A stretch of DNA of 64,000 bases from Acidobacteriota bacterium. Lineage in GTDB: Bacteria > Acidobacteriota > Thermoanaerobaculia > UBA5066. The stretch lies in NCBI GenBank assembly GCA_029781975.1, contig JAKOVQ010000017.1, forward strand, positions 442,074-506,073. The letters are read 5' to 3'. The translations under genes were made by a program, and so were the position numbers. Every line of letters begins with the position of its first letter. Position 1 is the first letter of the stretch. This document shows, in pieces, positions 17,499 to 58,566 of this stretch. The notes under the pieces are model-generated. The model ran no database searches. It was given only the letters and a program-made list of their open reading frames with translations, and was not told where the DNA came from.

Positions 17499-17531
17499 GT
17501 CAGCCTCCTGTCGGTTCCGGAGCCGTCCGGC

Positions 17532-18845: not shown

Positions 18846-19339
18846 CGGAGCCCCCTCGCGTCCCTCGGGATGAAGAGCCCCGACAGGACCCCCTCGAAGA
18901 CCTCTTCGCCGTCGCGGGCCCCTCCCACGAGCTGGATCTCCACGCTGCTGACGAGCTTGTTCCCCCTGAAGAAGCCGGACTCGCCGAACGTCGCCAGGGC
19001 GGCGACCGTCTCGCCGGGCCGGACCACCTTCTTGAAGACCCCGCGCTCGATCCCCGTGAAGAGGCCGACCATCTGGCGGATCTCCTCGACCGAGTGCGAC
19101 GCCGCGAGGTGGTAGATGCACCAGGCGACGCTCCCGACCTGCGCGGCCATCTCGATCAGCTTGACTCCCGGGACGACGGGGTCGCCGGGGAAGTGCCCCT
19201 CGCAGTCCTCGTCCTTCCAGGTGTAGGTGGCGAGGATGTGCTCGTCGTCCAGCTCGAGGATCTCCTCCACGAAGCGCATCGGCCTCGCCTGCGGCAGGAG
19301 GGCGAGGACCTCGCCGGGGGACAGCCTTCCCGCCGTCAC
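18842..19339 (-). CDS. FabZ-like 3-hydroxyacyl-ACP dehydratase
   Basis: 165 residues, single hot-dog fold. The catalytic motif is CEGHFPGDPVVPGVKLIEMA, giving His49 and Glu63, the FabZ pair. It would remove water from 3-hydroxyacyl-ACP. GTG 19339 overlaps the FabG stop by four bases, and its own stop overlaps the KAS II start, so it sits tightly in the operon. A second, double hot-dog dehydratase is encoded two genes upstream, so the pathway has two dehydration modules. Confidence 0.9.
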   Translation of the reverse strand: MTAGRLSPGEVLALLPQARPMRFVEEILELDDEHILATYTWKDEDCEGHFPGDPVVPGVKLIEMAAQVGSVAWCIYHLAASHSVEEIRQMVGLFTGIERGVFKKVVRPGETVAALATFGESGFFRGNKLVSSVEIQLVGGARDGEEVFEGVLSGLFIPRDARGLR

Positions 19340-20064
19340 AGGGCCATCCCCCCGTCGACGTGGAGGATCGAGCCGTTCGCGAAGTCGTTCTCGATGAGGT
19401 GTCCGACGGCCAGGGCGACCGCCTCCGGCGCGCCGAAGTCGCCGACGGCGACCTGGGCGAGGATCTTCCGCCGCAGCTCCGGCGCGATCTCCGCCGTCAT
19501 CGACGTCTCGATGAAGCCCGGCGCCACCGCGTTGACGCGCACGCCCCGGGGCCCGAGCTCGAAGGCGAACTGGCGTGTCATCTCCTCCAGGGCGGCCTTC
19601 GTGGCCCGGTAGACGGCGCTCCCGACCAGGGCCACCCGCGCCAGGACGGAGCTGACGTTGACGATGACCCCCGACCCGGACGCCGCCATCTCCCGCCCGA
19701 AGTCGCGCATCAGGAGGACGGGGGCCTTCAGGTTGAGCGCCACGAGCGCGTCGAAGGAGGTCTCCTCGATCTGGAGCGCGGGCTCGTGCGGCCGGTCGAT
19801 CCCCGCGTTGTTCACCAGCACGTACGGCGTCCCCCTCTCCAGGACCTTGGCAAGGAGCGCGGCGCGGCCGCCGGCCGTCGCGAGGTCCGCCCGCACGAGG
19901 AAGGAGCCGGGGATCGCCGCGCACAGCGCCTCGGCCGCCGCGCGGCCCCCGTTGTAGTGGAGCGCCAGCCGGAGCTCGCCCCCGCTCCTCTCGTGGATGT
20001 GCCGGGCCACGGCCTGCCCGATGCCGCCGGATGCCCCCGTGACGACCGCGATGTCCTTCCCCAC
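19336..20064 (-). CDS. 3-oxoacyl-ACP reductase, FabG-like SDR
   Basis: 242 residues, classical short-chain dehydrogenase: cofactor loop TGASGGIGQ (residues 9-17), NNAG at 85-88, and the catalytic set Ser139, Tyr152 and Lys156 (YRATK). The C-terminus HVDGGMAL is the usual FabG ending. It would reduce the 3-keto group with NADPH. The GTG start is seven bases after the dehydratase stop and is preceded by GGGGGTGAG. Length and motifs are standard. Confidence 0.93.
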   Translation of the reverse strand: MGKDIAVVTGASGGIGQAVARHIHERSGGELRLALHYNGGRAAAEALCAAIPGSFLVRADLATAGGRAALLAKVLERGTPYVLVNNAGIDRPHEPALQIEETSFDALVALNLKAPVLLMRDFGREMAASGSGVIVNVSSVLARVALVGSAVYRATKAALEEMTRQFAFELGPRGVRVNAVAPGFIETSMTAEIAPELRRKILAQVAVGDFGAPEAVALAVGHLIENDFANGSILHVDGGMAL

Positions 20065-20071
20065 GCCCGCC

Positions 20072-21241
20072 TCACCCCCTCCGCGCCAGCCGGCCGCCGC
20101 GGGACATCGGTCCCTCCCGCGGGTAGTCGGCGTACCGGATCCCCACGTGGCAGCCGACGTTGGCGTTCGCGACCGCGAGGACCCTCCGGCCGTCAGCGAA
20201 GACCTCCCCGTCGGCCCGGACGAACGCGTCGCCGCTCGCGGGGGACGTCAGCGTCCGGAGGATCCGGACCCTGTAGTCGATCCGCGCGTCGCGCGGCGTC
20301 ACGGCGTCGAAGACGTCGGCGCGCTCGAAGCCGAGGGCCCGGCCCGTCCCCGGGCTCCCGCTCCAGGCGAGGAAGAGCCCCAGGAGCTGCCAGACGGCGT
20401 CGACCAGGAGGGCCGGCGGCTTCCGCCCGCCGTTCATCGGGAAGGACCAGTCGGCCGGGTCGTTCCCGCGCGAGGCGACGACCTCCCCCTCTCCCGTCCC
20501 GCGGTCGAACGCGATCCGGTGGACCCGGTGGACCTCGAGCATGAGGGAGTGCGGCAGCAGCCCCATCTCGCCCGGAGGGTCGTTCACGAGCGTGCCGCGC
20601 GAGAGGGCGATCAGCTCGGCGTGCGAGAAGGAGCTCCGCGCCCCGAACTCCGCGGAGGAGAGCGGCGCGAGGAAGGGAGGGTCGAGGTCGTCGGGAATCC
20701 CGGTCCCCGCGCCGGCGCCGTCGCCCCCCTCGCCTCCTTCCCCCTCCCAGTAGGCCGTGCCGACCTGCGCCGAGGCGATCGAGTAGACCGCGACGCCGTC
20801 CGTCCGGACCGTCGCCTTCCCCGTGACCATCGCCTCCGCGCCGTCGCGCTCGACGGAGACGACGTCGACCTCGTAGGTGACCTCCCGGTCGTAGGGGCGG
20901 ACCTGGCCGAAGAAGGAGACCCCCTCCATCCCCATCGGCTTCTCGCAGCGCTCGATCCCGCGCCAGGCCGCGAAGAGCCGCAGCGCCTGCCAGACGGCGT
21001 CGACGCCCCAGCAGCCGGGCATCACCGGGTCGCTCAGGAAGTGGCAGCCGTAGTACCAGTCGTCCAGCCGGTTCCGCCGCACCGCCTCGATCCGCCCCGT
21101 GCCGGACTCCTCGTCCCAGGTGAGGAGCCGCACCTCGTGGAACGGAAGGAGGAGACCTTTCGGCAGCACCCCGGCCTCGGACAGCGCCACGACGTCTCCG
21201 TGCGCGAGGGCTGTCCGGTCCCGCAGCGCCGTTCCCGTCAC
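20072..21241 (-). CDS. Tandem FabA-like double hot-dog dehydratase, second domain degenerate
   Basis: 389 residues with two FabA-type hot-dog domains. The first has the full FabA active site, CHFLSDPVMPGCWGVDAVWQ (His67, Asp81). The second (about residues 190-389) repeats the layout, with VDAVWQLLG giving Asp281, but the position expected for histidine holds Phe267, so this half is probably inactive. A Gly/Glu-rich linker (EGEGGEGGDGAGAGTG) joins them. Tandem FabA domains are known from PUFA synthases (PfaC); here they form a free-standing protein. GTG 21241 overlaps the KAS III stop by four bases. Confidence 0.85.
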   Translation of the reverse strand: MTGTALRDRTALAHGDVVALSEAGVLPKGLLLPFHEVRLLTWDEESGTGRIEAVRRNRLDDWYYGCHFLSDPVMPGCWGVDAVWQALRLFAAWRGIERCEKPMGMEGVSFFGQVRPYDREVTYEVDVVSVERDGAEAMVTGKATVRTDGVAVYSIASAQVGTAYWEGEGGEGGDGAGAGTGIPDDLDPPFLAPLSSAEFGARSSFSHAELIALSRGTLVNDPPGEMGLLPHSLMLEVHRVHRIAFDRGTGEGEVVASRGNDPADWSFPMNGGRKPPALLVDAVWQLLGLFLAWSGSPGTGRALGFERADVFDAVTPRDARIDYRVRILRTLTSPASGDAFVRADGEVFADGRRVLAVANANVGCHVGIRYADYPREGPMSRGGRLARRG

Positions 21242-22242
21242 GCCAGCACCTCGACGAAGCCCGCGCCCCACGACAGGCCCGAGCCGAGGACGGCGTAGAC
21301 GAGCTGGTCCCCCGGCACCAGGCAGTCCCAGTTCTGGGCGATGACCGAGGGGCACCCGGCCGCCGCGATGTTCCCCTGCTCCCGAACGTTCCGCAGGTGG
21401 CGCTCGGCGGGCAGGCCGAGGTGCCCCAGGATGGAGTCCTGCATCACGTAGTTGGCCTGGTGGGCCACCGTGTAGACGCTCTCGGCGTAGAGGCCCTTCT
21501 CCTGCGCGATCGCCTCGAACATCTCGCAGGTCTTGCGGATCGAGAACTCGCGGACGGCGGCCCCGTTCTGCGCGAAGTGCCCCGCGCTGTCGATGACGAT
21601 CTCCTCGGCCCCCTCCGGCCGGGTCTCGAAGATCATCGGCTCCACCCGCAGCTTCCCCGGCCTGCGCGCCGAGACGACCTCGGCGGCCGCGCCGTCCCCC
21701 CAGATGTAGCCGTCGACGCTCCCGGCCGCGTAGTCGGTCCGGACCGTGTAGGCGCTCGTCTGGACGCAGAGGACGACCTCCGGGAGGGCCTCGGGCCTCG
21801 TGTCGGCGAGGAGCTTCATCTGCCGCGCGAAGCTCGAGCAGGCGCTGTTCACGTCGCAGTGGGGTCCGGAGCCGATGCCGAGCGCCTTGGCGATCAGCGA
21901 GGCGGTGCTCGGGATGGTCTCGAACGGCGTGTCGTTGTTCGCGACGACCCAGCTCACCTCGGCGGGCGTCACCCCGGCCTTCTCGAGCGCTCGCCGCGCG
22001 GCGGCAGCCCCCAGCGTGACCGGCGTCTCGCCGCGCATCCGCGCGTGGAGGATCGCCTGCCCCGGGTCCCGGTTCTTCGTCTCGAGGATGTACTCCTTGC
22101 TCAGGACCGAGTAGCGCTTCTCGATCCCGAGGCGCGACGAGACCCAGTCCGGCCCGCGCTCCAGGCCGACCTCCCGGTAGAGGAACTCGTTGTCGAGCTC
22201 GGTGGAAGGGAGGGCCCAGCCCATCCCGAGGACGCGCAGCAT
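21238..22242 (-). CDS. 3-oxoacyl-ACP synthase III (KAS III/FabH-like)
   Basis: 334 residues, thiolase fold with the Cys-His-Asn triad of initiating condensing enzymes: NSACSSF (Cys135), AHQANYVM (His261) and EQGNIAAAG (Asn291). It would start chains from an acyl-CoA or acyl-ACP primer. The ATG shares one base with the enoyl-reductase stop (TGATG). A 20-residue insertion-like stretch after residue 45 (KEYILETKNRDPGQAI) differs from housekeeping FabH, so the primer may be unusual. Confidence 0.9.
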   Translation of the reverse strand: MLRVLGMGWALPSTELDNEFLYREVGLERGPDWVSSRLGIEKRYSVLSKEYILETKNRDPGQAILHARMRGETPVTLGAAAARRALEKAGVTPAEVSWVVANNDTPFETIPSTASLIAKALGIGSGPHCDVNSACSSFARQMKLLADTRPEALPEVVLCVQTSAYTVRTDYAAGSVDGYIWGDGAAAEVVSARRPGKLRVEPMIFETRPEGAEEIVIDSAGHFAQNGAAVREFSIRKTCEMFEAIAQEKGLYAESVYTVAHQANYVMQDSILGHLGLPAERHLRNVREQGNIAAAGCPSVIAQNWDCLVPGDQLVYAVLGSGLSWGAGFVEVLA

Positions 22243-23231
22243 CAGGCCCCGGAGACCGCCTCGCCACCGTCGACCCGGATGACCTCACCGTTGGCCCAGG
22301 CGAATCCCGGCAGGCAGAGCGCGTGGATGGCCTCGGCGACGTCCTCGGGCGTCGTCAGGCGGTGGAAGGGGTTCCGGATGCGGGCCTGGGCCTTCATCAG
22401 GTCGAAACCGGGAATGGCGTTTCCGGCGGGGGTGTCCGTGATCCCCGCCTGGACGACATACGAGCGGACCCCGTAGGGCGCCAGCTCGACCGCCATCGCG
22501 CGCGACGAGGCCTCCAGCGCGCACTTGGCGGCCGAGACCGCCGCGTACCCCTTCCACGCGATCTCGTTCCCCTCGGAGGTCATGGCGACCAGGCGCGCGC
22601 CGGGCGCCAGGAGCCCGGCCGTGAGGAGCTCGCGGCCCCAGAGGAGGTGGTCGTATCCCATCATCCAGACCGTTCGCTTCAGGTCGTCCTCCCCGAGCAG
22701 CTCCTCCCGGTACGGGATCCGGCTGTCGGCCAGCGTGTGGAGCGCGTCGCACCCCTTCAGGTGGAACGCCGTGTTGACCGCCTTCCTGAGGACCGCCACC
22801 TCGACGGGAGACCCCTCGGCCGCCAGGGCCTCGGCGAGTCCCCGGAGCGCGATCCCCCGGAAGTCCGGCGTCCGGTCCTCCGCGAGCAGCTTGCACGCCC
22901 CGGCGGCGATGGAGTGCATGAAGAGGTGGACCCCTCCCGGCCCCGCGTGCTCCGCGATGCCGTCGAGAACCGTCCCGCGCTCCTCGTCGTCGAAGAGGTT
23001 GGCGTTGTGCGTGACGAGCGAGACCCCTTCCCTCCGGATCGCGTCGAAGTGAGGCGCGATCACCGACTCGACCGTCCCCTCGGGGTCCTTGTGGGCGAGG
23101 AGGATGTTGAGCCCGGCCCTGGCCAGGCGCTTGGCCGTGGCGAGCCCGAACCCCGAGGAGCCTCCCAGGATCACGGCCCAGAGTCCCCTGCCGCGGAAGG
23201 CCCCGATCTCCTCTTTCACGACGGCGTCCAT
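22242..23231 (-). CDS. FabI-like enoyl-ACP reductase (SDR, Tyr-x6-Lys)
   Basis: 329 residues, SDR fold. The cofactor loop is LGGSSGFGLATAKR (from about residue 22), and the catalytic pair is Tyr229 and Lys236 with six residues between (GYAAVSAAKCALE). That is the FabI spacing, not the Tyr-x3-Lys of FabG. It is longer than FabI (about 260) because of an insertion around residues 110-180. It is the first gene of the operon. The ATG lies only a few bases after the predicted transcription start and lacks a clear ribosome site, so translation may be near-leaderless. Confidence 0.8.
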   Translation of the reverse strand: MDAVVKEEIGAFRGRGLWAVILGGSSGFGLATAKRLARAGLNILLAHKDPEGTVESVIAPHFDAIRREGVSLVTHNANLFDDEERGTVLDGIAEHAGPGGVHLFMHSIAAGACKLLAEDRTPDFRGIALRGLAEALAAEGSPVEVAVLRKAVNTAFHLKGCDALHTLADSRIPYREELLGEDDLKRTVWMMGYDHLLWGRELLTAGLLAPGARLVAMTSEGNEIAWKGYAAVSAAKCALEASSRAMAVELAPYGVRSYVVQAGITDTPAGNAIPGFDLMKAQARIRNPFHRLTTPEDVAEAIHALCLPGFAWANGEVIRVDGGEAVSGA

Positions 23232-23242
23232 GACGGGCGGGG

Positions 23243-23279
23243 ATTATAGGGGTCTCCAAACCAGCGCGCGTAAACGCGC
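23243..23279 (-). promoter_or_regulatory. Promoter of the FAS-like operon with palindromic operator
   Basis: The minus strand has a perfect TATAAT (23248-23243). The region where a -35 would lie is occupied by the palindrome GCGCGT-TT-ACGCGC (23279-23266), a copy of the site at 13146-13159. No good -35 hexamer is visible, so the promoter probably depends on or is blocked by the factor that binds the palindrome. The predicted start is about five bases before the enoyl-reductase ATG. Confidence 0.5.
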
Positions 23280-23354
23280 CGACGGGAGCGAATCGAATTT
23301 GGATCGCCTCGACCCTCGTCCGGGCGAGCCGGGGAGGCGGTCTCCCGCGATGCG

Positions 23355-24302
23355 TTAGCCCATCCGCGCGGGATTCGGCTGCGAGCCCGACCGGCCGCCT
23401 CCGGCGAGCCTGTCCCAGGACCGCTGGAGAGCCGGCGCCAGGGACAGCGCGAGGCCGGCGGTCGCGATTCCGAGGACCGCGTCCGTCACGTAGTGGTACC
23501 GGCCGTAGACCGTGGAGACGTAGAGGGAGAGGATGACCGGCGAGAGGACCCAGAACGTCGGCCGGTGGTACCTCCAGGCCATGACCCACATGACCGTCGC
23601 GGCGGCCGCGTGAGGGCTCGGGAGAGAGCCGCCCGCGAAGTGCGCCCGGGTCCGGATCAGCTCCCCCGCCCAGGTGAAGACCCACCCGTGGAGCGGTACG
23701 CGGAACCGCTCCGGCATCCAGTACAGCGGGCCGGCGACGGGGAAGAGGACGAATCCGACGTCGCACAGGACGTTCGCGAGGCCCAGCGTGAAGAAGGCGT
23801 CCTCCGCCGCCGCCCGGCCCCGCCTGGCCCAGAGGATCGCGCAGACGATCGGGTAGAGCGGCACGTAGACGACGTAGCAGAACATCATCCACTCGGTGAG
23901 AGCGGGCGTGACGAACCGTTCCAGCCACAGCGTGGGCTGGACGGCGAAGAGCCGCGCCTCGAGCGCGAGGACCAGGTCGTCCCGGAAACGTCCCTGGACG
24001 ATCAGCTGAAGGGAGGCGACGGCGCTGAACAGGTAGGCGTACGAGAGGGTGACGGTTGCCGTCCGGAGGAGGAAGGCGAGCGCGGGGGGCCGGACGCGCG
24101 GCACCACGGCCGCGGAGACGAGGACACCTGCGAAGACGGCGAGGTTCCTCCCGACGAGAAGGGACCAGCCGGGGACCTGGGCGCGGCCGCCCACGGCCAG
24201 CAGGCTGAACGCCACGAGCGATGCGAGGATGACGCCGTCGGCCGCTCGAAGCTCGGCGCCCGCGACGACCAGATGGCCCGTGTCGCTCCCGTTTCGCCGC
24301 AC
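23355..24302 (-). CDS. PAP2-family membrane phosphatase (inositolphosphotransferase-like)
   Basis: 315 residues, six or more membrane helices. The PAP2 signature is GSLPSPHAAAATVMW followed by YGRYHYVTDAVLG, which resembles the PAP2_3 or inositol-phosphorylceramide-synthase-like branch more than the simple phosphatases. It may act on lipid phosphates or transfer a head group. GTG 24302 is 18 bases after the CPBP stop. It is the last gene of an epimerase-CPBP-PAP2 operon, which hints at envelope lipid or glycan work. Confidence 0.75.
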   Translation of the reverse strand: MRRNGSDTGHLVVAGAELRAADGVILASLVAFSLLAVGGRAQVPGWSLLVGRNLAVFAGVLVSAAVVPRVRPPALAFLLRTATVTLSYAYLFSAVASLQLIVQGRFRDDLVLALEARLFAVQPTLWLERFVTPALTEWMMFCYVVYVPLYPIVCAILWARRGRAAAEDAFFTLGLANVLCDVGFVLFPVAGPLYWMPERFRVPLHGWVFTWAGELIRTRAHFAGGSLPSPHAAAATVMWVMAWRYHRPTFWVLSPVILSLYVSTVYGRYHYVTDAVLGIATAGLALSLAPALQRSWDRLAGGGRSGSQPNPARMG

Positions 24303-24319
24303 GCCTTCGCCCGTCGCCC

Positions 24320-25042
24320 CTACCGGCAGACGATGAAGAGGTCGAGGGACACGCCCAGCACCCAGTGGGTCAGGAGCGGGACCAGCAGCGAACGCGACCG
24401 GAAGGCGATCACTCCCCACACGACCCCTCCCAGGACCGCGCCGAGCGTCTCCCCGAGGGGCTTGCCGACGTGAAGGGCCGCCGAGACGGCCGTCTGGACG
24501 AGGATGGCGTTCCAGTCCCCCATCTCGTCGCGCAGCCCGCACTGGACGAACCCACGGAAACCGAACTCCCAGCCCGCGTAGAAGACGAGGTAGGCGAGCG
24601 CGTGGCCCGCGAAGGCGAGCGGACCGTCGCCCGCGGCCCGGTTCAGGGGGTAGACCGCGAGGAACTCGGGCATCCTCGACGCCGAGAGGCTGAGCAGCAC
24701 CATCACCGGGGCCACGACGGCGAGCGCCTTCCAGCCGTAGGAGAGGTCGCCGGCCCGCACGCCGTAGGCCGAGAGCGGCTCATGGAAGACGACCCTCACG
24801 ATCAGCGCCGGGATCAGGCCGAGGAGGACGAAGGCCGACGCGAAGGCGTAGAGCCCCGCGGTCAGCTCCACGTTCCCCCCGAGGGCGACCGAGGACGCCA
24901 GGTGACGGAGGTAGAACGGCTTGCTGCCGACGTACACGAAGAGGATCCCGAGGACCGGCGCGGCCAGCAGGACGATCGTCGCCTTCCGGTCGGCGGAATG
25001 GAGAAGGCCCCCGGTGGAGTCCACCGCCTCTCGCGGAGTCAT
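24320..25042 (-). CDS. CPBP-family intramembrane protein (CAAX protease/bacteriocin-processing)
   Basis: 240 residues, about seven membrane helices. The CPBP motifs are GWEFGFRGFVQ (motif 1, where the first glutamate of the usual EExxxR is Trp), SAALHVGKPLGE (motif 2) and PLLTHWVLGVSLD (motif 3). The altered motif 1 occurs in some relatives, so activity is not certain. The ATG overlaps the epimerase stop as ATGA. Substrate unknown. Confidence 0.8.
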   Translation of the reverse strand: MTPREAVDSTGGLLHSADRKATIVLLAAPVLGILFVYVGSKPFYLRHLASSVALGGNVELTAGLYAFASAFVLLGLIPALIVRVVFHEPLSAYGVRAGDLSYGWKALAVVAPVMVLLSLSASRMPEFLAVYPLNRAAGDGPLAFAGHALAYLVFYAGWEFGFRGFVQCGLRDEMGDWNAILVQTAVSAALHVGKPLGETLGAVLGGVVWGVIAFRSRSLLVPLLTHWVLGVSLDLFIVCR

Positions 25043-26043
25043 CGTGCGCCTCTTTGCCGATGCAGCCAGTCGAGCGTCCGGCGCATCCCCTCCCGGAGGG
25101 GCGTGATCCGGTAACCGAGCTCGCGTTCGGCCTTCGCGCTCGTGTAGGCCCAGTCCACGAGGAACGTCTCCACCCACCCGGGCGTGATCTTCGGGTAGAT
25201 GCCGAGCCGCCGCGCCTTCTCCCTCTCGAGGCCGGCGTACAGCATCGCGACGGGGCGGGGCAGACCGATCTGGACGTGCCGCCGTCCGGTCAGCTCGTCC
25301 ACCAGGCGCAGGAGGTCCCTGAGCGAGACGTTCTCGCCTCCCAGGATGTATCGCTCCCCCACCCTCCCCTTCTCCAGGGCGAGGAGGTGCCCCTCGACGA
25401 GGTCGTCCACGAGGACGTAGTTCCCCACGTTCGCGCCCCGGCCGGGGAGGAACGGGAACCGCCCGCGGTCGTACTGGTCGAGCATGAGGGAGACCGAGTT
25501 CCCCTCCGTCCGCTTCCCCGGCCCGTAGACGCGGGTCGGGTGGACGGCGACGATCGGGAGGCCCTTCGAGGCCAGCGCCAGGGCTTCCTTCTCGGCGACG
25601 GCCTTGCTCTCCTCGTACTCCGTCAGGTAACGCGACGTCGCCCTCGGCCTCGCCTCGTCCCCGACGACGCCCCGGGGCGTCGGCCCGAAGACCACCACGG
25701 TCGACGTGTAGACGATGCGACGGACGCCGGCCTCCGCGGCCGTCTCGAAGACGTTTCGCGCGCCCTCGACGTTCAGCCGGAAGAAGGTCGCCGGGTCCTT
25801 CGCCCAGTTCCTCGCGTAGGCAGCCAGGTGGAACACCTCCGTGCACCCGTCCATCCCGCGCCGGAGGGAATCGCGGTCGAGGATGTCGCCGGTCGCCCAT
25901 TCGAGCCGCTCGGCAGCGGCCGGCCTCTCGCTCGCGGGACGTGCCAGGGCCCGTACGGACCGCCCCCGAGCCAGGAGGGCGCCCACGAGCCGGTCCCCGA
26001 CGAAGCCCGTTCCGCCCGTGACGAAGACCCGTTCGGGGCTCAC
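25039..26043 (-). CDS. NAD-dependent epimerase/dehydratase (extended SDR)
   Basis: 334 residues. The N-terminus has the Rossmann motif GGTGFVG (10-16), a YTSTVVVFG strand, and YEESK as the Tyr-x3-Lys catalytic pair. The C-terminal part (GNYVLVDDLVEGHLLALEKG, then GERYILGGENVSLRDLL) matches the hopanoid-associated or dihydroflavonol-reductase-like branch. It would modify a sugar nucleotide or another NAD-linked alcohol. The GTG start is first in a three-gene overlapping operon. Confidence 0.85.
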   Translation of the reverse strand: MSPERVFVTGGTGFVGDRLVGALLARGRSVRALARPASERPAAAERLEWATGDILDRDSLRRGMDGCTEVFHLAAYARNWAKDPATFFRLNVEGARNVFETAAEAGVRRIVYTSTVVVFGPTPRGVVGDEARPRATSRYLTEYEESKAVAEKEALALASKGLPIVAVHPTRVYGPGKRTEGNSVSLMLDQYDRGRFPFLPGRGANVGNYVLVDDLVEGHLLALEKGRVGERYILGGENVSLRDLLRLVDELTGRRHVQIGLPRPVAMLYAGLEREKARRLGIYPKITPGWVETFLVDWAYTSAKAERELGYRITPLREGMRRTLDWLHRQRGAR

Positions 26044-26161
26044 GGCGCCTCCCGTCTGCCGGAGGCCGGACGGCTCCGTCCGTCCTCGCTCCCGCGCGCG
26101 AGACCCATGCTAGCACCGGGCGAAGCCCCGACGCTCCGCCTCCGCGTCATACTGGGACGTG

Positions 26162-49622: not shown

Positions 49623-52600
49623 GGAGCATCTCCGCCAAGCTCCTGGCCCTTCAGCTCGCGGGCGGCGTCCTCGTCGTGGCGACCCTCTACGCGCTCCTGC
49701 ACCGCCAGGCCCTGACCGGGCTCACGAGCGAGTTCACCCAGCACGCGGAGGTCGTCGCCTCCAGCCTGGCCAGGTCCGTGGAGCCGGCGCTCGTCGAGCG
49801 GGACCCGACGACCGTGCAGTCGGAGCTCGACGCGGTCCTCTCCGTCCCGGACGTCGCGTGGGCGTTCGTGACGGGCCCGGACGGCCAGGTCCTGGCCCAC
49901 ACGTTCGTCCCGAAGGTCCCGGCCGAGCTGAAGGGATGGACCCGTCCCGACGGGCCGCCCGAGACGACGATCCCGGGCGGGACCGCGGGGATCTTCGTGG
50001 TCCGCAGGCCGGTCCTGACCGGGACCGTGGGGACGGTCTTCGTCGGGTTCGACCGCGCATCGCTCGCCTCCTCGATCCGCCAGATGGAGGTCGGGAGCCT
50101 CTCGACCATCGCGGCGGTGATCCTGTCGGTGGCCCTCGCGCTCTGGCTCGTGGGCCGCCATCTCCTGAAGCCGGTCCGCGAGCTGACGCGCGCCGCCGAG
50201 TTCCTCTCCGGGGGCTCCCGATCGGCGTACCGGGACGTGCGGGTGCGCTCGGGCGACGACCTCGGCGTCCTGACCAGCACCTTCAACCGGATGGCCCGTG
50301 CGGTCCGCGAGCACGAGGAGACCCTGGAGGCGCAGGTCGCCGAGCGAACGCGCTCGCTCTCGCGCGCGAACGCGGCCCTCGCCGTCGAGGTCGCCGAGCG
50401 CGCGAGGGCGGCGCAGCTCAAGAGCACCGAACACGCGGTCACCCGGCTCCTGGCGGAGGCCGCGACCCTCGACGAGGCCGTCCCCGAGCTCCTCCGCCTT
50501 ATCGCGGAGGGGATCGGGTGGGACGCCGGCGCCCTCTTCGACGTCGACGAGGCCGCCGGCGTGGTGAGGTGCCGCGGGCTCTGGCACCGGCCGGGCTCGG
50601 GCCTCGAGGCCTTCGCGCGGTCGACGCGCGGGATGGCCCTCCCGCTGGGGGTCGGGCTCGCCGGGAGGGTCGCGAGCGGCCGGGAGCCGGTCTGGATCGA
50701 GGACGTCTCGAGGAGCCCCCTCTTCCGGGAGAGGTCCGAGGCCGACGGCCTCGAGGGACCGGAGGACCTCGGGGGCCTCCGCGCCGCGTTCGGATGCCCC
50801 GTGGTCGTCGGCGAGCAGCTGGCCGGGTGCCTCGAGCTCTTCGACCGCGAGTTCCGGACGCCGGATCCGGACCTCCTCCTCATGGGCACCTCCCTCGGCC
50901 GGCAGCTCGGCCAGTTCATCGTCCGCAAGCGCGCCGAGGAGGGTCTCCGCCACGCGAAGGACGCCGCCGAGAGCGCGAACCGCGCGAAATCGGAGTTCCT
51001 GGCCAACATGAGCCACGAGATCCGGACGCCGATGAACGGCGTCATCGGGATGACGGAGCTGGCCCTCGGGACGGACCTGACGCCCGAGCAGCGGGAGTAC
51101 CTGGAGATCGTCCGGTCGTCGGGCGACGCGCTCCTCGGCCTGATCAACGACATCCTGGACCTCTCGAAGATCGAGGCCGGGAAGATCGAGGTCGATCGGG
51201 TCGCCTTCGAGCTCCGCTACGCGCTGGACGAGAGCGTCCGGGTCCTCGCCCCCGCCGCGCACCAGAAGGGGCTCGAGCTGGCGCTCCGCGTCGCCCCCGA
51301 CGTCCCGTCCGGCCTAGTCGGCGACCCTTCCCGGCTGCGACAGGTCATCGTGAACCTCGTCGGGAACGCCGTGAAGTTCACGGAGAAGGGCGAGGTCGTC
51401 GTGTCGGTCGAGTGCGCCGAGAGGACGGCCGACCGGGTGACCCTGCAGGTCACCGTCGCCGACACGGGGATCGGCATCCCCCTCGAGAAGCAGGCCTCGA
51501 TCTTCCAGGCCTTCACCCAGGCCGACCCCTCCACGACGCGCCGCTACGGGGGGACGGGGCTCGGCCTCTCGATCGCGTCGCAGCTCGTGGCGCTGCTCGG
51601 AGGGCGCATCTGGGTCGAGAGCGAGCCCGGCGCGGGGAGCCGCTTCCACTTCACGCTGCCGTTCGAGGTCAGGGCCGGGCTGGAGCCCCGGCGCCCGTCG
51701 GCGGAGCTCCGGGACCTTCGCGGCGTCCGCGTCCTCGTGGTGGACGACAACGCCACCAACCGCCGGATCGTCGAGGAGATCGTCCTCGGCTGGGGGATGG
51801 GACCCACGCTGGTCGACGGCGGGGAGCCCGCCCTCGCCGCGATCGCGGCGGCGCGGGAGGCCGGGAGCCCGTTCGACCTCGTCCTCCTCGACTTCCAGAT
51901 GCCGGGGATGGACGGCTTCGAGGTCGCGGAGCGGATCCGGGAGCGCTCCGACCCGGGCGTCACGACGATCATGATGCTGTCGTCCGTCGGAGAGCGCGGC
52001 GACGCCCGCCGGTGCCGCGAGGTCGGCATCTCGGCCTACCTCGTCAAGCCCGTGAGGAAGTCGGTCCTCCTGGACGCGGTCCTGGCGGCCCTCGGCGGGC
52101 CGAGGCGGGCAAGGCCCGGCACGCCCGCTCTCGTCACCCGCCACTCCCTGGGAGAGCGCAGCCGTCCGCTCAGGGTCCTGGTCGCCGACGACAGCGCCGT
52201 GAACCAGCGCCTCCTCTCGACGATCCTCGAGAAGGAGGGACATGCCGTGGTGCTCGCCGCGAACGGCCGCGAAGCGCTCGCGGCGCTCCGCGGAGGGGAG
52301 TTCGACGTCGTCCTGATGGACGTCCAGATGCCGGAGATGGGCGGGTTCGAGGCGACCGCGGCGATCCGCGCCGCGGAGAAGGAGACGGGGCGGCACGTCC
52401 CGATCGTGGCCCTCACCGCCCACGCGCTGAAGGGCGACCGGGAGGCCTGCCTGGCCGCCGGAATGGACGACTACCTGGCCAAGCCCGTCCGCGCCCCGGC
52501 GCTCCTCGACGCCCTCTCGCGGGTGAGCGCCCAGAGCCGTGAGGCGCCGCTCCTGACGGAGCCCCCCGCCGTCGCGCCGGTCGCTCCCTCCCGCCCGAGC

Positions 52601-52930
52601 TTCGACCCCGAGGAGGTCCTGTCCCGCGTGGAGGGGGACCGCGACCTCCTCCGCGAGATCGTGGACCTCTTCGTCGAGGAGACTCCGGGGATGCTCGCCG
52701 AGATCCGCCGCTGCGCCGGCGAGGGCGACGCCGGGGGCCTCGAGAGGGTGGCGCACCGGCTGCGCGGCACGCTCCTGAACTTCGGCGCGCGCCCGGCGGC
52801 GGAGGCCGCGCTCGCGCTCGAGCAGATGGGGCGCTCGGGGGACCTGGCCGGGGCGCCGTCCCGGCTGTCGGAGCTCGACCTCGAGCTCCGGGGCCTCTCG
52901 GTCGGCCTGAAGGCGATGGTCGGCACGTGA
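49619..52930 (+). CDS. Hybrid sensor kinase: HAMP-GAF-HisKA-HATPase-REC-REC-HPt
   Basis: 1103 residues. An N-terminal helix, a periplasmic segment of about 120 residues and a second helix are followed by a HAMP region, a GAF-like domain (about 270-430), HisKA with [12 protein letters not shown] (His466), and an HATPase with DTGIGIP and GGTGLGLSI. Then come two receivers, [11 protein letters not shown] (Asp758) and [12 protein letters not shown] (Asp901), and an HPt domain with [13 protein letters not shown] (His1046). This is an unorthodox multistep phosphorelay kinase. The ATG overlaps the previous stop as ATGA. It probably signals to the GGDEF regulator in the same operon. Confidence 0.95.
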
Positions 52931-52965
52931 GGGGCGGCCGAAGGGCGGCTGGCGCGCTCCCTGCG

Positions 52966-52980
52966 CCCGCGATCCGCGGG
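52966..52980. terminator. Small hairpin between convergent operons
   Basis: CCCGCG-ATC-CGCGGG lies between the kinase stop (52930) and the ligase stop (53006). Weak as a terminator, with no T run. Confidence 0.3.
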
Positions 52981-53005
52981 AGGTCCGGCCGACGGGCCCC
53001 CGGAG

Positions 53006-54790
53006 TCAGGCGGACGTCGGCCGGCCGGCGCCACCGCCGAGCCTGACCCGGGTGAACGCGAGAGCGGAGCGGACCACCTCGATCAGGACGCGCAGGCGCC
53101 CGACTCGGACCGGCGGATCGAGCGCCCCGGCGAGGAACCGGCGCAGCGCCTCGTTGCGGCGGAGCTTGCCGCTCGACGTGCGCGGGAGCGTCCCCGGCTC
53201 GAGCAGCCGAACGGTGTGGGGGCGGATCCCCGTGTGCGAGAGGACGGCGCGGCGGATCCGCTCGACCGTCCCTTCGTCGTCCGCGGGCGGCCCCGTGCCC
53301 CTGGCGCGTTCCGCGAGGACGAGCAGCTGCTCGCCGTCCTCCCCTTCCGGGACGAACCCGACGGCGACGGCGCACCCGGCCCGCACGCCCTCGACGCCCG
53401 CGAGCGCCTCCTCGAACTCCTGGGGAAGGTGGTTCGCTCCCCGGATGACGATGACGTTCTTCTCGCGGCCGCAGACGTGGAGCTCGCCCCCGGCGACGAA
53501 CCCGAGGTCTCCGGTGTCGAGCCACCCGCCCGAAAGCGCGCTCGCCGTGGCCTCGGGCTGGCCGAAGTAGCCCGCCATCACGGACGGACCGCGGACGAAG
53601 ATCCGCCCGACCCGAAGCTCCCCGAGGACGCTCCCGTCCGGGCCCCGGACCTCGACGTCGGTGCCCGGCACGGGCGTCCCGACCGAGACGACGGCGCGCG
53701 GGCCGTCCACGGCCTCGCCCGTCGCGGCGAGCCGCACCGGGTCGACGCGGGTCGCCTTCACCTCCCGGTCGCCGGGCGTGAAGGTGACGGCGAGGGCGGC
53801 CTCCGCGAGGCCGTAGACGGGCCGCAGGGCCCTCCGGTCGAACCCGAACGGCCCGAAGCGCCGGGCGAATCGATCGAGGGAGTCGAGCGACACCGGCTCG
53901 GCCCCGCAGAGGGCGACCTGCCAGCACGAGAGATCGGCGCCCCCCAGATCCTCGTCCCGCACCCGCTTGGCGCACAGCGCGTAGGCGAAGCTCGGCGCCA
54001 CGGAGATCGTGGCGCGATGCCGCGCGATCGCCCGGAGCCACAGCGCCGGCCTGGCCAGGAAGAGCTCGGGCGGGATCAGGACGAGCGGCCCCGGGTAGTA
54101 GACGGCCTGGAGGAGGCAGCCGATCAGCCCCATGTCGTGGTAGAGCGGCAGCCAGGAGACGCCCTTCTGCGGCAGGGCCTCCTCCCGGGGGAGGAGCGCC
54201 CGGAGGGCCGCGAGCTGGGCCATCAGGCCGTCGTGCGAGAGGGCGACCGGCCTCGGGTCCGCCGTCGATCCGGAGGAGAACTGGATCAGGCCGAGCGCCC
54301 CGGGACCGATCTCGGCCTCGAGCTCGCCAGCGGGGCCGAGGTCCCCGAGCGTCACGCACCCGAGCGGCGGGCGAGACGACTCGATCGCCTTCCCGAGGAG
54401 CGAGCGGGTCGTGGCGTCGGCGAGGACGAGCCGCGCCCCGACGGCGGCGATCATCCTCGACGTGGAGACGAGGTACTCCGCGAGCCGCCCGAGGCGGACG
54501 GGCGGGTAGAGCGGGACCGGCACGGCCCCGGCGAGGAGCACCCCGAAGAAGGCCTCCAGGAACGCCGGCGACGTCGGGAAGACGAGGGCGACGCGGTCGC
54601 CGGTCTCGACCCCCCGGGCCCGGAGCGCGCCCGCCGTCCGGCGGGCACGGGCTCGGACGTCGCCGTAGGTGACGAAGGTCTCGCCCTCCGTCCGGTCGAC
54701 GAAGGTGAGGCCCGAGGCGCTCGCCGCGGCCGCGGCGAGCGCCTCGTTCACGCTCCGGAACCTCGGATGAGGGAGGCGGGGACCCTTCAC
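53006..54790 (-). CDS. Fatty-acyl-AMP ligase (FAAL-type AMP-dependent synthetase)
   Basis: 594 residues. Adenylation fold: ATP loop FSSGSTADPRP (171-181, with Arg where Lys is usual), the FAAL phrase SWLPLYHDMGLIG, VALCGAEPV, PVYGLAEAALAVTF, LDTGDLGFV, and a C-terminal RTSSGKLRRNEALR with the catalytic lysine. This is the branch that activates fatty acids and loads them onto an ACP rather than CoA. GTG 54790 overlaps the ACP stop by four bases. Together with the ACP it probably supplies the starter to the type III PKS. Chain length is unknown. Confidence 0.9.
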   Translation of the reverse strand: MKGPRLPHPRFRSVNEALAAAAASASGLTFVDRTEGETFVTYGDVRARARRTAGALRARGVETGDRVALVFPTSPAFLEAFFGVLLAGAVPVPLYPPVRLGRLAEYLVSTSRMIAAVGARLVLADATTRSLLGKAIESSRPPLGCVTLGDLGPAGELEAEIGPGALGLIQFSSGSTADPRPVALSHDGLMAQLAALRALLPREEALPQKGVSWLPLYHDMGLIGCLLQAVYYPGPLVLIPPELFLARPALWLRAIARHRATISVAPSFAYALCAKRVRDEDLGGADLSCWQVALCGAEPVSLDSLDRFARRFGPFGFDRRALRPVYGLAEAALAVTFTPGDREVKATRVDPVRLAATGEAVDGPRAVVSVGTPVPGTDVEVRGPDGSVLGELRVGRIFVRGPSVMAGYFGQPEATASALSGGWLDTGDLGFVAGGELHVCGREKNVIVIRGANHLPQEFEEALAGVEGVRAGCAVAVGFVPEGEDGEQLLVLAERARGTGPPADDEGTVERIRRAVLSHTGIRPHTVRLLEPGTLPRTSSGKLRRNEALRRFLAGALDPPVRVGRLRVLIEVVRSALAFTRVRLGGGAGRPTSA

Positions 54791-55047
54791 CGCGCCCGGC
54801 CCTCGCGGACGGCGCGCTCCACGACGACGACGAGGTCCTCCACGGTCACGACGGACGGGGCATCGGTCCCGGCCAGGCTCACCCGGAACCGGTCCTCGAG
54901 GGCGACGGCCAGGACGAGGGCGCCGACCGAGTCGACCTGGAGGTCCGCGGCCAGCTGGTGGTGAAGCTCGACGGGACCGGCGACCTCCAGGTCGGCAGCG
55001 AGGGTCCTCCGGATCTCGGCGAGGACCTCGGCACGGACGTCATCCAT
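54787..55047 (-). CDS. Acyl carrier protein
   Basis: 86 residues, four-helix carrier-protein pattern with the phosphopantetheine serine in LQVDSVGALVLAVALE (Ser40). Acidic second helix, no signal peptide. It starts inside the methyltransferase gene end (eight-base overlap), and its stop overlaps the FAAL start by four bases. As it is encoded between a methyltransferase and a FAAL, it is probably the dedicated carrier for this type III PKS operon, although it could also serve the FAS-like operon 30 kb away, which has none. Confidence 0.92.
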   Translation of the reverse strand: MDDVRAEVLAEIRRTLAADLEVAGPVELHHQLAADLQVDSVGALVLAVALEDRFRVSLAGTDAPSVVTVEDLVVVVERAVREGRAR

Positions 55048-55618
55048 GCGGACCTCGAGGCAGCAGCCGGGATCGCCCTTCGAACGCGGCGGCGTAGGGC
55101 CGGCCCAGTGCCTGCTCCTCGGCGGGGATGCGGACGGCGAGCAGCGCCCCGTTCAGGGCGGAGAACGTCAGCGCGGTGAGCCACGCGCCGTGGATCAGGG
55201 GAACGCAGGCCATCTCGAGGACCACCGCCAGGTAATTCGGATGCCGCAGGAAGCGGTAGGGGCCGCCGGTGACCGGCGTGGCCCCGGGGATGGCGATGAT
55301 CCGCGTGTTCCAGCGCCACCCGAGCGTCCGGACGGCCCACCAGCGCAGCACCTGGGCTCCGAGGGCCGCGCCCAGGGCCCCGAACCCGAGGGCGCCCGGA
55401 AAGGGGCGCTTCAGGACGAGCACCTCGCCCGCGCACGCGAGGGGGAAGAGGGTGTGGAGCACGACCATGACCGCGTAGGCGCCGCGCCCCGTCTCGACGC
55501 CGCCCGCCGCGAGGGCGGCTCGAGAGTTGCGGCGCGAGACGAGGAGCTCCGCCCCCCTCTCCAGGCCGAGGAGGCAGAGGAACCCGAGGTAGAGGAGGAC
55601 GGAGGCGGGGGCTACCAC
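55040..55618 (-). CDS. ICMT-family (isoprenylcysteine-type) methyltransferase
   Basis: 192 residues, about four membrane helices. Family motifs are YRFLRHPNYLAVVLEMACVP and the late RIPAEEQALGRPYA, the SAM-binding part. GTG 55618 overlaps the type III PKS stop. In Bacillus the ICMT-like BpsB methylates the alkylpyrones made by the type III PKS BpsA, so here too an O-methylation of an alkylpyrone or resorcinol is likely. That role is by analogy. Confidence 0.85.
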   Translation of the reverse strand: MVAPASVLLYLGFLCLLGLERGAELLVSRRNSRAALAAGGVETGRGAYAVMVVLHTLFPLACAGEVLVLKRPFPGALGFGALGAALGAQVLRWWAVRTLGWRWNTRIIAIPGATPVTGGPYRFLRHPNYLAVVLEMACVPLIHGAWLTALTFSALNGALLAVRIPAEEQALGRPYAAAFEGRSRLLPRGPHG

Positions 55619-56703
55619 TGCAGGAGGACCAGCTCCGAGCAGAAGCCGGGCCCCATCGCCATCAGGAGCCCGCGGTCTCCCCTGGCAGGCTCGCCCGACG
55701 CGAGGAGCTCTCCGAGGACGAAGAGCACCGCCGCCGAGGAGAGGTTCCCGGTCTCCTTCAACGATCGCCACGAGCGCGCGAGGGCCCCCTCGGGTAGCTC
55801 CAGCGCGCTCTCGAACGCCCGGAGCACCTTCGGCCCGCCGGTGTGGGCGATCCAGTGGCGGACGGCCGAACGCTCGAGGCCGCTCTTCGCCAGGAAACCC
55901 TCCACGTCGCCGCGGACGTTCCGGCGCACCACCTCCGGCACCTTCGCCGAGAGGACCACCTTGAAGCCCGATTCCACGATGTCCCACCCCATCACGCGCT
56001 CCGTCCCCGGGTAGAACACGGAGCCCGTCGCCACGACGGCGGGACCGCCCGTCGAGCTCCCCCCGTCACGGTCGGCGCCCGCGAGGACGACCGCGGCCGC
56101 GCCGTCGCCGAAGAGGCCGGACGAGATGACGTTGGGGATCGAGAGGTCCTCCAGCTGGAGCGTGAGCGAGCAAAGCTCGACGGACAGGAGGACGGCCACC
56201 TGGTCCGGAAAGGCGGCGAGCAGGTCCGAGGCACGCGAGATGCCGGCCGCACCGCCCGCGCAGCCCAGGCCGAAGAGGGGCGAGCGCCGGACGTCGCGCC
56301 TCAGGCCCAGCCTGTTGACGAGCCGTGCGTCGATGCTCGGAGTCGCGATCCCCGTCGTCGTGACGAAGAAGAGGTGGTCCACGTCCGCGGGCGAGAGCCC
56401 GGCCCGCCCGAGCGCGTCCCGGATCGCCGCCTCGCCGAGGTCCACCGCGGCTCGGGTCCACGCCTCGTTCCGGGCCGCGAACGACGTCATCTCCCGGTAC
56501 GCCTCGAGCGGCAGGGCCAGGTAGCGCCCGGACACCTGGACGGCGCGGTGGAGCTCGTCCAGCCGGTCCGGGTTGAAGTGGGCCCCGGCCCAGGCGTCGC
56601 GAAACGCGGCGATGAGGGTCTCCTGGCTGGCGTAGTGCTCGGGGAGCGCCCGGCCCACGGCGCGGATGCGGACAGGTAGCCGCGGGGGCCGCTCGGTCGT
56701 CAC
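55612..56703 (-). CDS. Type III polyketide synthase (chalcone/stilbene synthase family)
   Basis: 363 residues. It has the full Cys-His-Asn triad: FGLGCAGGAAG (Cys148), IAHTGGPKVL (His287) and ETGNLSSAAV (Asn320), plus the C-terminal loop AMGPGFCSELVLLQW. Enzymes of this sort extend a fatty acyl or other starter with malonyl units and cyclise it to a pyrone or resorcinol. GTG 56703 is the first gene of a four-gene operon with methyltransferase, ACP and FAAL, all overlapping. The starter and product cannot be read from sequence. Confidence 0.93.
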   Translation of the reverse strand: MTTERPPRLPVRIRAVGRALPEHYASQETLIAAFRDAWAGAHFNPDRLDELHRAVQVSGRYLALPLEAYREMTSFAARNEAWTRAAVDLGEAAIRDALGRAGLSPADVDHLFFVTTTGIATPSIDARLVNRLGLRRDVRRSPLFGLGCAGGAAGISRASDLLAAFPDQVAVLLSVELCSLTLQLEDLSIPNVISSGLFGDGAAAVVLAGADRDGGSSTGGPAVVATGSVFYPGTERVMGWDIVESGFKVVLSAKVPEVVRRNVRGDVEGFLAKSGLERSAVRHWIAHTGGPKVLRAFESALELPEGALARSWRSLKETGNLSSAAVLFVLGELLASGEPARGDRGLLMAMGPGFCSELVLLQW

Positions 56704-57087: not shown

Positions 57088-57912
57088 ATGAGCACGATCA
57101 CCACGAGGGACGGCACGCAGATCTCCTACAAGGACTGGGGCACGGGACAGCCCGTGGTCTTCAGCCACGGGTGGCCCCTCAACGCGGACAGCTGGGAGGC
57201 CCAGATGGTGTTCCTCGCCTCCCACGGCTACCGGTGCATCGCCCACGACCGCCGCGGCCACGGCCGCTCGAGCCAGCCCTATGGCGGCAACGACATGGAC
57301 ACCTACTCCGACGACCTCTCGGAGCTCATCGAGCGGCTCGACCTCGAGCGCGCCGTCCTCGTCGGGTTCTCCGCGGGCGGCGGGGAGGTCGCCCGCTACG
57401 TGGGCCGCCACGGCACGAAGCGGCTGGCCAAGGTCGCGCTCGTCTCCGCCGTCCCGCCGCTGATGCTGAAGACCGCGGACAACCCCGGCGGGCTGCCGAT
57501 GGAGGCGTTCGACGCGCTCCGCCTCGGCTCGATCGCCGACCGCTCGCAGCTCTACAAGGACCTCGCCAGCGGCCCGTTCTTCGGGGCCAACAGGCCCGGC
57601 GCCCGGGTCTCGCAGGGTGCGATCGACTCGTTCTGGCTCCAGGGCATGCAGGCCGGCCACACGAACGCCCTCGACTGCATCAAGGCGTTCTCCGAGACGG
57701 ACTTCACCGAAGACCTCGCGAAGCTCGACGTGCCGACGCTCATCGTGCACGGCGACGACGACCAGGTCGTGCCGATCGGCGCGTCGGCTCTGCGTTCGGC
57801 GAAGCTGGTCAGGAACGCGACCCTGAAGGTCTTCGCGGGCGCTCCCCACGGGCTGACCTACACGCACAAGGGTCAGCTCGACGCGGCCCTGCTGGCATTC
57901 CTCGGAACCTGA
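57088..57912 (+). CDS. Alpha/beta hydrolase (non-haem chloroperoxidase/esterase type)
   Basis: 274 residues. Oxyanion region [13 protein letters not shown], nucleophile elbow GFSAGGGEV (Ser95), acid in HGDDDQVVP (Asp225) and catalytic His254 ([10 protein letters not shown]). This is the cofactor-free haloperoxidase/esterase branch, whose natural substrates are usually small esters or lactones. It is followed by wrbA at 51 bases. In many bacteria both are general-stress genes, which fits the promoter type. Confidence 0.93.
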
Positions 57913-57963
57913 GGCGGGCCGGCGGGCGCCGGCACCCGGACACGCACCCTGAGGAGGGACGAC

Positions 57964-58566
57964 ATGACGAAGGTCCTCGTTCTCTACTACAGCATGTACG
58001 GCCACGTCGAGACCCTGGCGTACGCGGTGGCCGAAGGCGTGCGCGACGTCGAAGGCGCCGCGGCCAGCATCGCGCGCGTGCCCGACCTCGTGCCGGAGGA
58101 CGTGGCACGGAAGGCCGGCGCGAAGCTCGATCAGGCGGCGCCGATCGCGACCGTGGACGAATTGCCGGGCTTCGACGCCATCCTCTTCGGGACGCCGACC
58201 CGGTTCGGCAACATGTGCGCGCAGATGCGGAACTTCCTCGACCAGACCGGCCGTCTGTGGCTGAAGGGCGCGCTGATCGGCAAGGTGGGGAGCGTCTTCA
58301 CGTCGACGGCCACGCAGCACGGAGGACAGGAGACGACGATCACGTCGTTTCACAGCACCCTGCTGCATCACGGCATGGTCGTCGTGGGGGTGCCGTATTC
58401 CTGCCAGGAGATCATGACGATGAGCGAGATCACCGGCGGCTCGCCGTACGGGGCGGGCACCCTCGCCGGCGGAGACGGCAGCCGGGTCCCGTCGGAGAAC
58501 GAGAAGAAGATCGCCCGCTTCCAGGGGAGGCACGTGGCGGCCTTGGCCAGGAAGCTCTCCGCCTGA
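57964..58566 (+). CDS. wrbA: NAD(P)H:quinone oxidoreductase WrbA
   Basis: 200 residues, flavodoxin-like fold. [16 protein letters not shown] is the FMN phosphate loop, followed by [32 protein letters not shown] and [13 protein letters not shown]. WrbA is a tetrameric FMN quinone reductase that reduces quinones by two electrons and limits radical formation. GAGGAGGG-type ribosome site before the ATG. It shares a transcript with the upstream hydrolase. Assignment is secure. Confidence 0.95.

Follow-up and report, generated by a model that had tools for sequence, protein, structure and literature searches.

An acidobacterial type III polyketide synthase operon with its own acyl carrier protein and fatty acyl-AMP ligase, resembling the Myxococcus ftp pathway but lacking its terminal monooxygenase

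In Myxococcus xanthus, the type III polyketide synthase (PKS) FtpA is cited as making alkylresorcylic acid together with a fatty acyl-AMP ligase (FAAL) (Hayashi 2011, as cited in PMC8460268, PMC5916927, and PMC10896814), with malonyl-coenzyme A (CoA) and methylmalonyl-CoA as extenders (PMC5916927), and the resulting products are oxidised to quinones in that organism (PMC10896814). A cluster of the acidobacterium Mor1 matches that of M. xanthus gene by gene, with a stilbene synthase, a methyltransferase, an AMP-synthetase, and a monooxygenase (PMC5006271). Type III PKSs were formerly thought to need CoA thioesters only; acyl-acyl carrier protein (acyl-ACP) is accepted by GCS, ArsB/ArsC, and CylI (PMC6274091, PMC8086630), and its recognition by these enzymes was called unresolved in a 2016 review (PMC6274091). 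Here, we analysed a 64,000-nucleotide stretch (hereafter, the window) of contig JAKOVQ010000017.1 from the 5.4-Mb genome of an Acidobacteriota bacterium, in which four consecutive genes encode a type III PKS, a membrane methyltransferase related to isoprenylcysteine carboxyl methyltransferase (ICMT), a free-standing ACP, and a FAAL (Table 1). Because the M. xanthus and Mor1 clusters, as well as acyl-ACP-using type III PKSs, are already known, the gene arrangement itself has been described before, and the window operon adds a member shorter by one gene to a known phenolic-lipid operon type.

We concluded with good confidence that the operon belongs, as an acidobacterial representative, to the Myxococcus ftp-type operons for phenolic lipids, with the terminal monooxygenase missing. 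The basis for this reading in our data consists of the gene identities, the intact catalytic residues, the gene order, the co-inheritance of the genes, and the absence of the monooxygenase. As in the M. xanthus pathway, represented in our comparison by loci of other Myxococcus species and Corallococcus, an orthologous PKS (64–68% identical to the Myxococcaceae copies) is accompanied by an ICMT-like enzyme, a free ACP, and a FAAL in the same order; unlike that pathway, the operon lies in Acidobacteriota and has no terminal flavin monooxygenase. The Mor1 cluster, recognised as M. xanthus-like, is likewise acidobacterial and likewise combines a PKS, a methyltransferase, and an AMP-synthetase, but it keeps its monooxygenase, and its product was sought and not found (PMC5006271). 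Among the features of ftp-type operons, the window thus has the unit of PKS, FAAL, and free ACP and the ICMT-like gene between PKS and ACP; it lacks the terminal monooxygenase, which is usual rather than universal in such operons and was therefore not counted as defining.

The PKS matched both chalcone/stilbene synthase families of Pfam (Chal_sti_synt_N, 1e-23; Chal_sti_synt_C, 1e-20), and its closest solved structure was M. tuberculosis PKS11 (1.4e-90 in a PDB sequence search). Its AlphaFold model (mean pLDDT 89.7) superimposed on PKS11 with a TM score of 0.93 and a root-mean-square deviation of 1.5, CylI being the next match. The chalcone synthase (CHS) fold and the Cys-His-Asn triad that mark a type III PKS were both present, the triad (Cys148, His287, and Asn320) being intact and, together with Trp240, invariant in all 105 ingroup homologs. 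The methyltransferase was assigned by PF04140 (2.9e-26) and PF04191 (5.5e-8), and the ACP by PF00550 (6.7e-6), with the serine of its DSV motif at residue 40; this serine motif was kept in 75 of 76 ACP matches from relatives. The ligase matched the FAAL subfamily model NCBIfam PRK09192 (3.2e-132) with 441.8 bits, below the curated cut-off of 600 bits. Its best solved relatives were nevertheless all FAALs (2e-89 to 1e-43, against 4e-37 for the best CoA ligase), and its end-to-end alignment with E. coli FAAL 3pbk (2e-89) takes in a segment that we interpret as the FAAL-specific insertion; the catalytic-lysine motif PRTSSGK starts at residue 536. With a sequence closer to FAALs than to CoA ligases, the ligase is accordingly read as a FAAL and is predicted to transfer its acyl group to ACP.

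A sequence-only reading of the window had proposed that these four overlapping genes form a single functional unit and had suggested a survey of the gene set in other genomes. All four genes were confirmed at their places, the family searches agreeing, and the overlaps, put at 4–8 bases, were 7 (PKS/methyltransferase), 8 (methyltransferase/ACP), and 4 (ACP/FAAL) bases; the methyltransferase start at 55618, an in-frame GTG, agreed with the start of homology in relatives. The survey scanned one genome per species, and the best 80 relatives returned (PKS identity 53–85%) came from Acidobacteriota, Myxococcota (including Myxococcus, Corallococcus, Pyxidicoccus, Archangium, Anaeromyxobacter, and Sorangium), Rokuibacteriota, Gemmatimonadota, Binatota, and others. 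Ten other genomes of the window's class carried the set of four genes with its order unchanged, as did the majority of about 100 loci spread over several phyla; the loci of Myxococcus, Corallococcus, Pyxidicoccus, Archangium, and Anaeromyxobacter shared the order, with PKSs 63–69% identical to that of the window. A PKS of the broad type (E ≤ 1e-60) occurred in 88 of 396 genomes sampled from the window's phylum, and one at E ≤ 1e-110 in 117 of 195 genomes from the phylum of a Myxococcus genome. PKS distances correlated with those of FAAL, ICMT, and ACP (r = 0.90, 0.80, and 0.79, respectively; none of 999 permutations as high), and thus the four genes are inherited as a set. The conserved order and this co-inheritance ruled out chance adjacency. 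A single functional unit is therefore well supported by comparative sequence data and by the M. xanthus precedent, with the qualification that the four genes, conserved together as they are, are not the whole unit in most relatives, which add a fifth gene for a flavin monooxygenase. We also observed that in some loci the FAAL (L095, L103), or an ACP-FAAL or ICMT-ACP-FAAL set (L101, L165), lies 2.5–5 kb from the remaining operon with other sequence between. Two of our entries, L106 and G009, were one locus by identity and coordinates.

On the model of characterised relatives, the FAAL would convert a free long-chain fatty acid into its acyl-AMP and load the acyl group onto the phosphopantetheine arm of the ACP encoded in the operon, after which the acyl-ACP would dock on the PKS and pass its chain to Cys148. 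The PKS would extend the chain with about three malonyl units, one of which may be replaced by methylmalonyl, and an aldol condensation would close the ring to an alkylresorcylic acid or alkylresorcinol. The ICMT-like enzyme would then methylate this compound, probably in a decarboxylative manner like SrsB, to give an alkylresorcinol methyl ether, which, to judge from the gene content, would stay unoxidised and yield no quinone. The predicted product is a (methylated) alkylresorcinol, not a quinone, because the monooxygenase is absent from both this copy and the genome; such a copy may offer a minimal four-gene set for methylated alkylresorcinols without oxidation. The genome also encodes a methylmalonyl-CoA mutase and a phosphopantetheinyl transferase, so methylmalonyl units and a holo-ACP are plausible. 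That the FAAL-ACP pair supplies an acyl-ACP starter, as the sequence-only reading had it, is well supported by the conservation of the operon and by the M. xanthus precedent; FAAL-to-ACP transfer has been demonstrated in vitro for one FAAL-ACP pair of M. xanthus (PMC8460268).

In the PKS, Trp240 aligns to Trp230 of PKS11, which has been equated with the ArsB tryptophan required for resorcinols and is conserved in FtpA, SrsA, PKS10, and PKS11 (PMC5916927); replacing the ArsB tryptophan switches the product to alkylpyrones (PMC6274091). SrsB of Streptomyces griseus carries out decarboxylative methylation of alkylresorcylic acid, according to a title cited in PMC5916927. Because the window PKS is FtpA-type and has the resorcinol-associated tryptophan, SrsB appears to be a better guide to the methylation step than BpsB, with which the methyltransferase had initially been compared. 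The parallel for the ICMT-like enzyme shifts from BpsB, which serves alkylpyrones, to SrsB, which serves alkylresorcylic acid and which we take to be ICMT-like as well.

Other systems share parts of this layout. The srsABC operon, likened here by description, pairs the PKS SrsA with the O-methyltransferase SrsB acting on alkylresorcylic acid; unlike srsABC, the window has no hydroxylase corresponding to SrsC, and no hydroxylase ortholog was found in its genome. To our knowledge, srsABC has no FAAL-ACP pair. Several relatives of the window PKS show exactly the PKS-ICMT-flavin monooxygenase arrangement of srsABC, and four loci of the same PKS clade (L129 of Sorangium cellulosum So ce26, L104, L107, and L121) have this srsABC-like set without ACP and FAAL genes. 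In Bacillus subtilis bpsAB, also likened by description, a type III PKS adjoins an ICMT-like methyltransferase; its products are alkylpyrones, in contrast to the window operon with its ACP and FAAL genes and resorcinol-type Trp240, and we know of neither a FAAL nor an ACP in bpsAB. In the cylindrocyclophane and merocyclophane clusters, the FAAL CylA and the free ACP CylB feed a pathway ending in the resorcinol-forming CylI, but type I PKS modules handle the chain before it reaches CylI. The planctomycetal and cyanobacterial hid-type (hierridin) clusters make alkylresorcinols with a type III PKS, a methyltransferase, and an oxidoreductase (PMC10896814), but a FAAL-ACP pair is not reported in the hid-type operon.

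Several points weigh against the ftp-type reading. The first four steps of the proposed route are modelled on characterised relatives, and the M. xanthus FAAL-ACP pair assayed in vitro (PMC8460268) may be other than the ftp pair. ACP and FAAL genes are absent from some loci of the PKS clade, and thus the PKS type is not strictly dependent on loading genes. Finally, PKS11 carries the same tryptophan, yet it was solved with alkylpyrone intermediates, so Trp240 is suggestive only as a sign of resorcinol formation. This last point leads to a reading in which the acyl-ACP route holds but lactone closure, as in BpsA or PKS11, gives an alpha-pyrone that the ICMT-like enzyme methylates as BpsB does. 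PKS11 is the closest solved relative, its reported intermediates being methyl-branched alkylpyrones, and ICMT-like enzymes serve alkylpyrones too, in line with the initial BpsB parallel. We nevertheless consider an alpha-pyrone unlikely, since the resorcinol-associated Trp240 is invariant in the clade, the M. xanthus ortholog is cited as making alkylresorcylic acid, and the standard operon carries a UbiH-like flavin hydroxylase, which is suited to phenols.

That hydroxylase is the fifth gene of the relatives, a GG-reductase/UbiH-like flavoprotein. The usual order, PKS-ICMT-ACP-FAAL-flavin monooxygenase, was exact in 44 loci with at least 3.5 kb of downstream sequence, and the gene stood at the corresponding place in the related genomes G001, G057, and G030 and in Myxococcaceae. 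No ortholog was found at the window locus, where 75 bases separate the FAAL stop from that of a convergent gene, or elsewhere in the window's genome, the best match being 32% identical; in G004, from the window's family, none was found at the locus or in the genome, and about ten other loaded loci (those with the PKS encoded beside ACP/FAAL genes, as opposed to unloaded loci without them) also had no monooxygenase nearby. The simplest reading is a loss in the window lineage, because G001 keeps the gene and has a PKS 85% identical to that of the window; branch support there is modest. A flavodoxin/FMN-reductase gene upstream was rejected as a substitute, being divergent, beside an alpha/beta hydrolase gene, and outside the operon. 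It is also improbable that an unlinked flavoprotein replaces the monooxygenase so that a quinone is formed after all: the genome does hold distant paralogs, but GG-reductase-type flavoproteins are common and such paralogs are expected anyway, the orthologs of G057 and G030 are 62–63% identical to that of G001 and located in the operon, and G004 resembles the window in having none. That the PKS instead draws acyl-CoA or acyl-ACP from primary metabolism, with the FAAL-ACP pair serving fatty-acid salvage or another acceptor, seems very unlikely, for although loci without the pair exist and many type III PKSs accept acyl-CoA in vitro, the position of the pair inside the operon is conserved in most relatives, the PKS-FAAL distance correlation is high, a PKS N-terminal motif tracks the presence of the pair, and M. 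xanthus provides a precedent.

This motif was defined on 76 loaded and 29 unloaded ingroup PKSs (the discovery set), in which the strongest differences between the two classes clustered in residues 42–47. N44 occurred in 76/76 loaded and 14/29 unloaded PKSs, R47 in 76/76 and 16/29, and an aromatic residue ([FWY]) at 43 in 57/76 and 3/29; the combined motif [FHY]43-N44-x2-R47 was present in all 76 loaded PKSs and in 5 of the 29 unloaded ones. Among further Myxococcota, with discovery copies removed, the motif was found in 52/53 loaded and 3/7 unloaded PKSs (Fisher p = 3e-4), a weak replication, given how closely these PKSs are related to those of the discovery set. Overall, it was present in 128 of the 129 loaded PKSs, the loaded locus L289 having no F, H, or Y at 43. 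Three of the five genomes with an unloaded, motif-bearing PKS (G421, G394, and G425) carry elsewhere an ACP gene adjoining that of a FAAL with 45% identity or more, as against none of the 24 without the motif (p = 0.003; the 45% line was set after the results were seen); in G394, about 11 kb of the same contig separate this set from the locus, which exceeds the locus limit. In G421 (L094, L192), the PKS is on one contig and the ICMT-ACP-FAAL-monooxygenase genes are on another, beside a PKS fragment, reflecting either rearrangement or an assembly break.

The motif residues open helix 45–55 in the PKS model, and R47 lines up, by eye, with alfalfa CHS Lys55, which we take to contact CoA. Unloaded loci are concentrated in few lineages, so that the correlation is confounded by ancestry; a sign test controlling for ancestry had 6 well-supported independent pairs, too few for significance, with N44 following the expected direction in about 1.4 pairs and the opposite direction never. 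The motif failed as a strict predictor, as Archangium-type PKS-ICMT-flavin monooxygenase loci (L090, L275, L276, and L279) keep it without linked ACP/FAAL and L289 is an exception, and as a general rule, as CylI, fed by a type I PKS ACP, is without N44 and R47. We propose only tentatively that it is part of the PKS site recognising the partner ACP and decayed where the FAAL-ACP genes were lost or never acquired; if so, it could predict which type III PKSs of the clade take acyl-ACP. The association is correlative, and the motif is a candidate site for mutation. With the PKS accompanied by its own ACP and FAAL in more than 100 loci and by neither in relatives, this operon family provides a natural contrast that gives testable residues.

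Maximum-likelihood analysis of 112 PKSs joined the window's family and a second family (f11) in one clade among Myxococcota sequences and placed others from the same class as the window (G022, G040, G048, G051, and G058) in a second large group; support for the deeper join was moderate (80/88). The locus has probably moved horizontally between Myxococcota and this lineage of Acidobacteriota, in one direction or the other. ACP/FAAL presence required about 13 changes on the tree, at least 6 of them on well-supported branches, and thus the FAAL-ACP pair can be regarded as an optional module.

Table 1. Features of the window, with positions counted from its first nucleotide.
Feature	Coordinates	Strand	Details
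Type III PKS	55612-56703	minus	363 aa, GTG start; Pfam, PDB sequence search, AlphaFold model
PKS residues 38-48 (WAGAHFNPDRL)	56560-56592	minus	holds [FHY]43-N44-x2-R47; motif counts by locus class
ICMT-like (SrsB/BpsB-type) membrane methyltransferase	55040-55618	minus	192 aa; PF04140, PF04191
Free-standing ACP	54787-55047	minus	86 aa; PF00550; serine 40 codon 54928-54930
FAAL	53006-54790	minus	594 aa; NCBIfam PRK09192
Gap between FAAL stop and convergent histidine kinase stop	52931-53005	none	75 bases; relatives' fifth gene sits here
Hybrid histidine kinase	49637-52930		convergent with the operon
Alpha/beta hydrolase and flavodoxin-type FMN/quinone reductase	57088-58566		divergent; flavodoxin/FMN-reductase gene 57964-58566
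Second ketosynthase-type cluster	16599-26109	minus
FabF-like	17532-19496	minus	second cluster
FabH-like ketoacyl-ACP synthase (KAS) III	21238-22284	minus	second cluster
Short-chain dehydrogenase (SDR)/enoyl reductase	22242-23243	minus	second cluster
HpnA-like epimerase	25039-26109	minus	second cluster
Phosphopantetheinyl-transferase match	near 15571-15780		by second cluster

The hybrid histidine kinase bordering the operon end contains CHASE8, HAMP, GAF, HisKA, HATPase, two receiver, and Hpt domains, and the hydrolase and reductase genes lie upstream of the PKS; none of the three showed a sign of belonging to the operon. An Rfam search over the window returned no RNA features. The second ketosynthase-type cluster, with a phosphopantetheinyl-transferase match close by, possibly represents a lipid or polyene pathway of its own.

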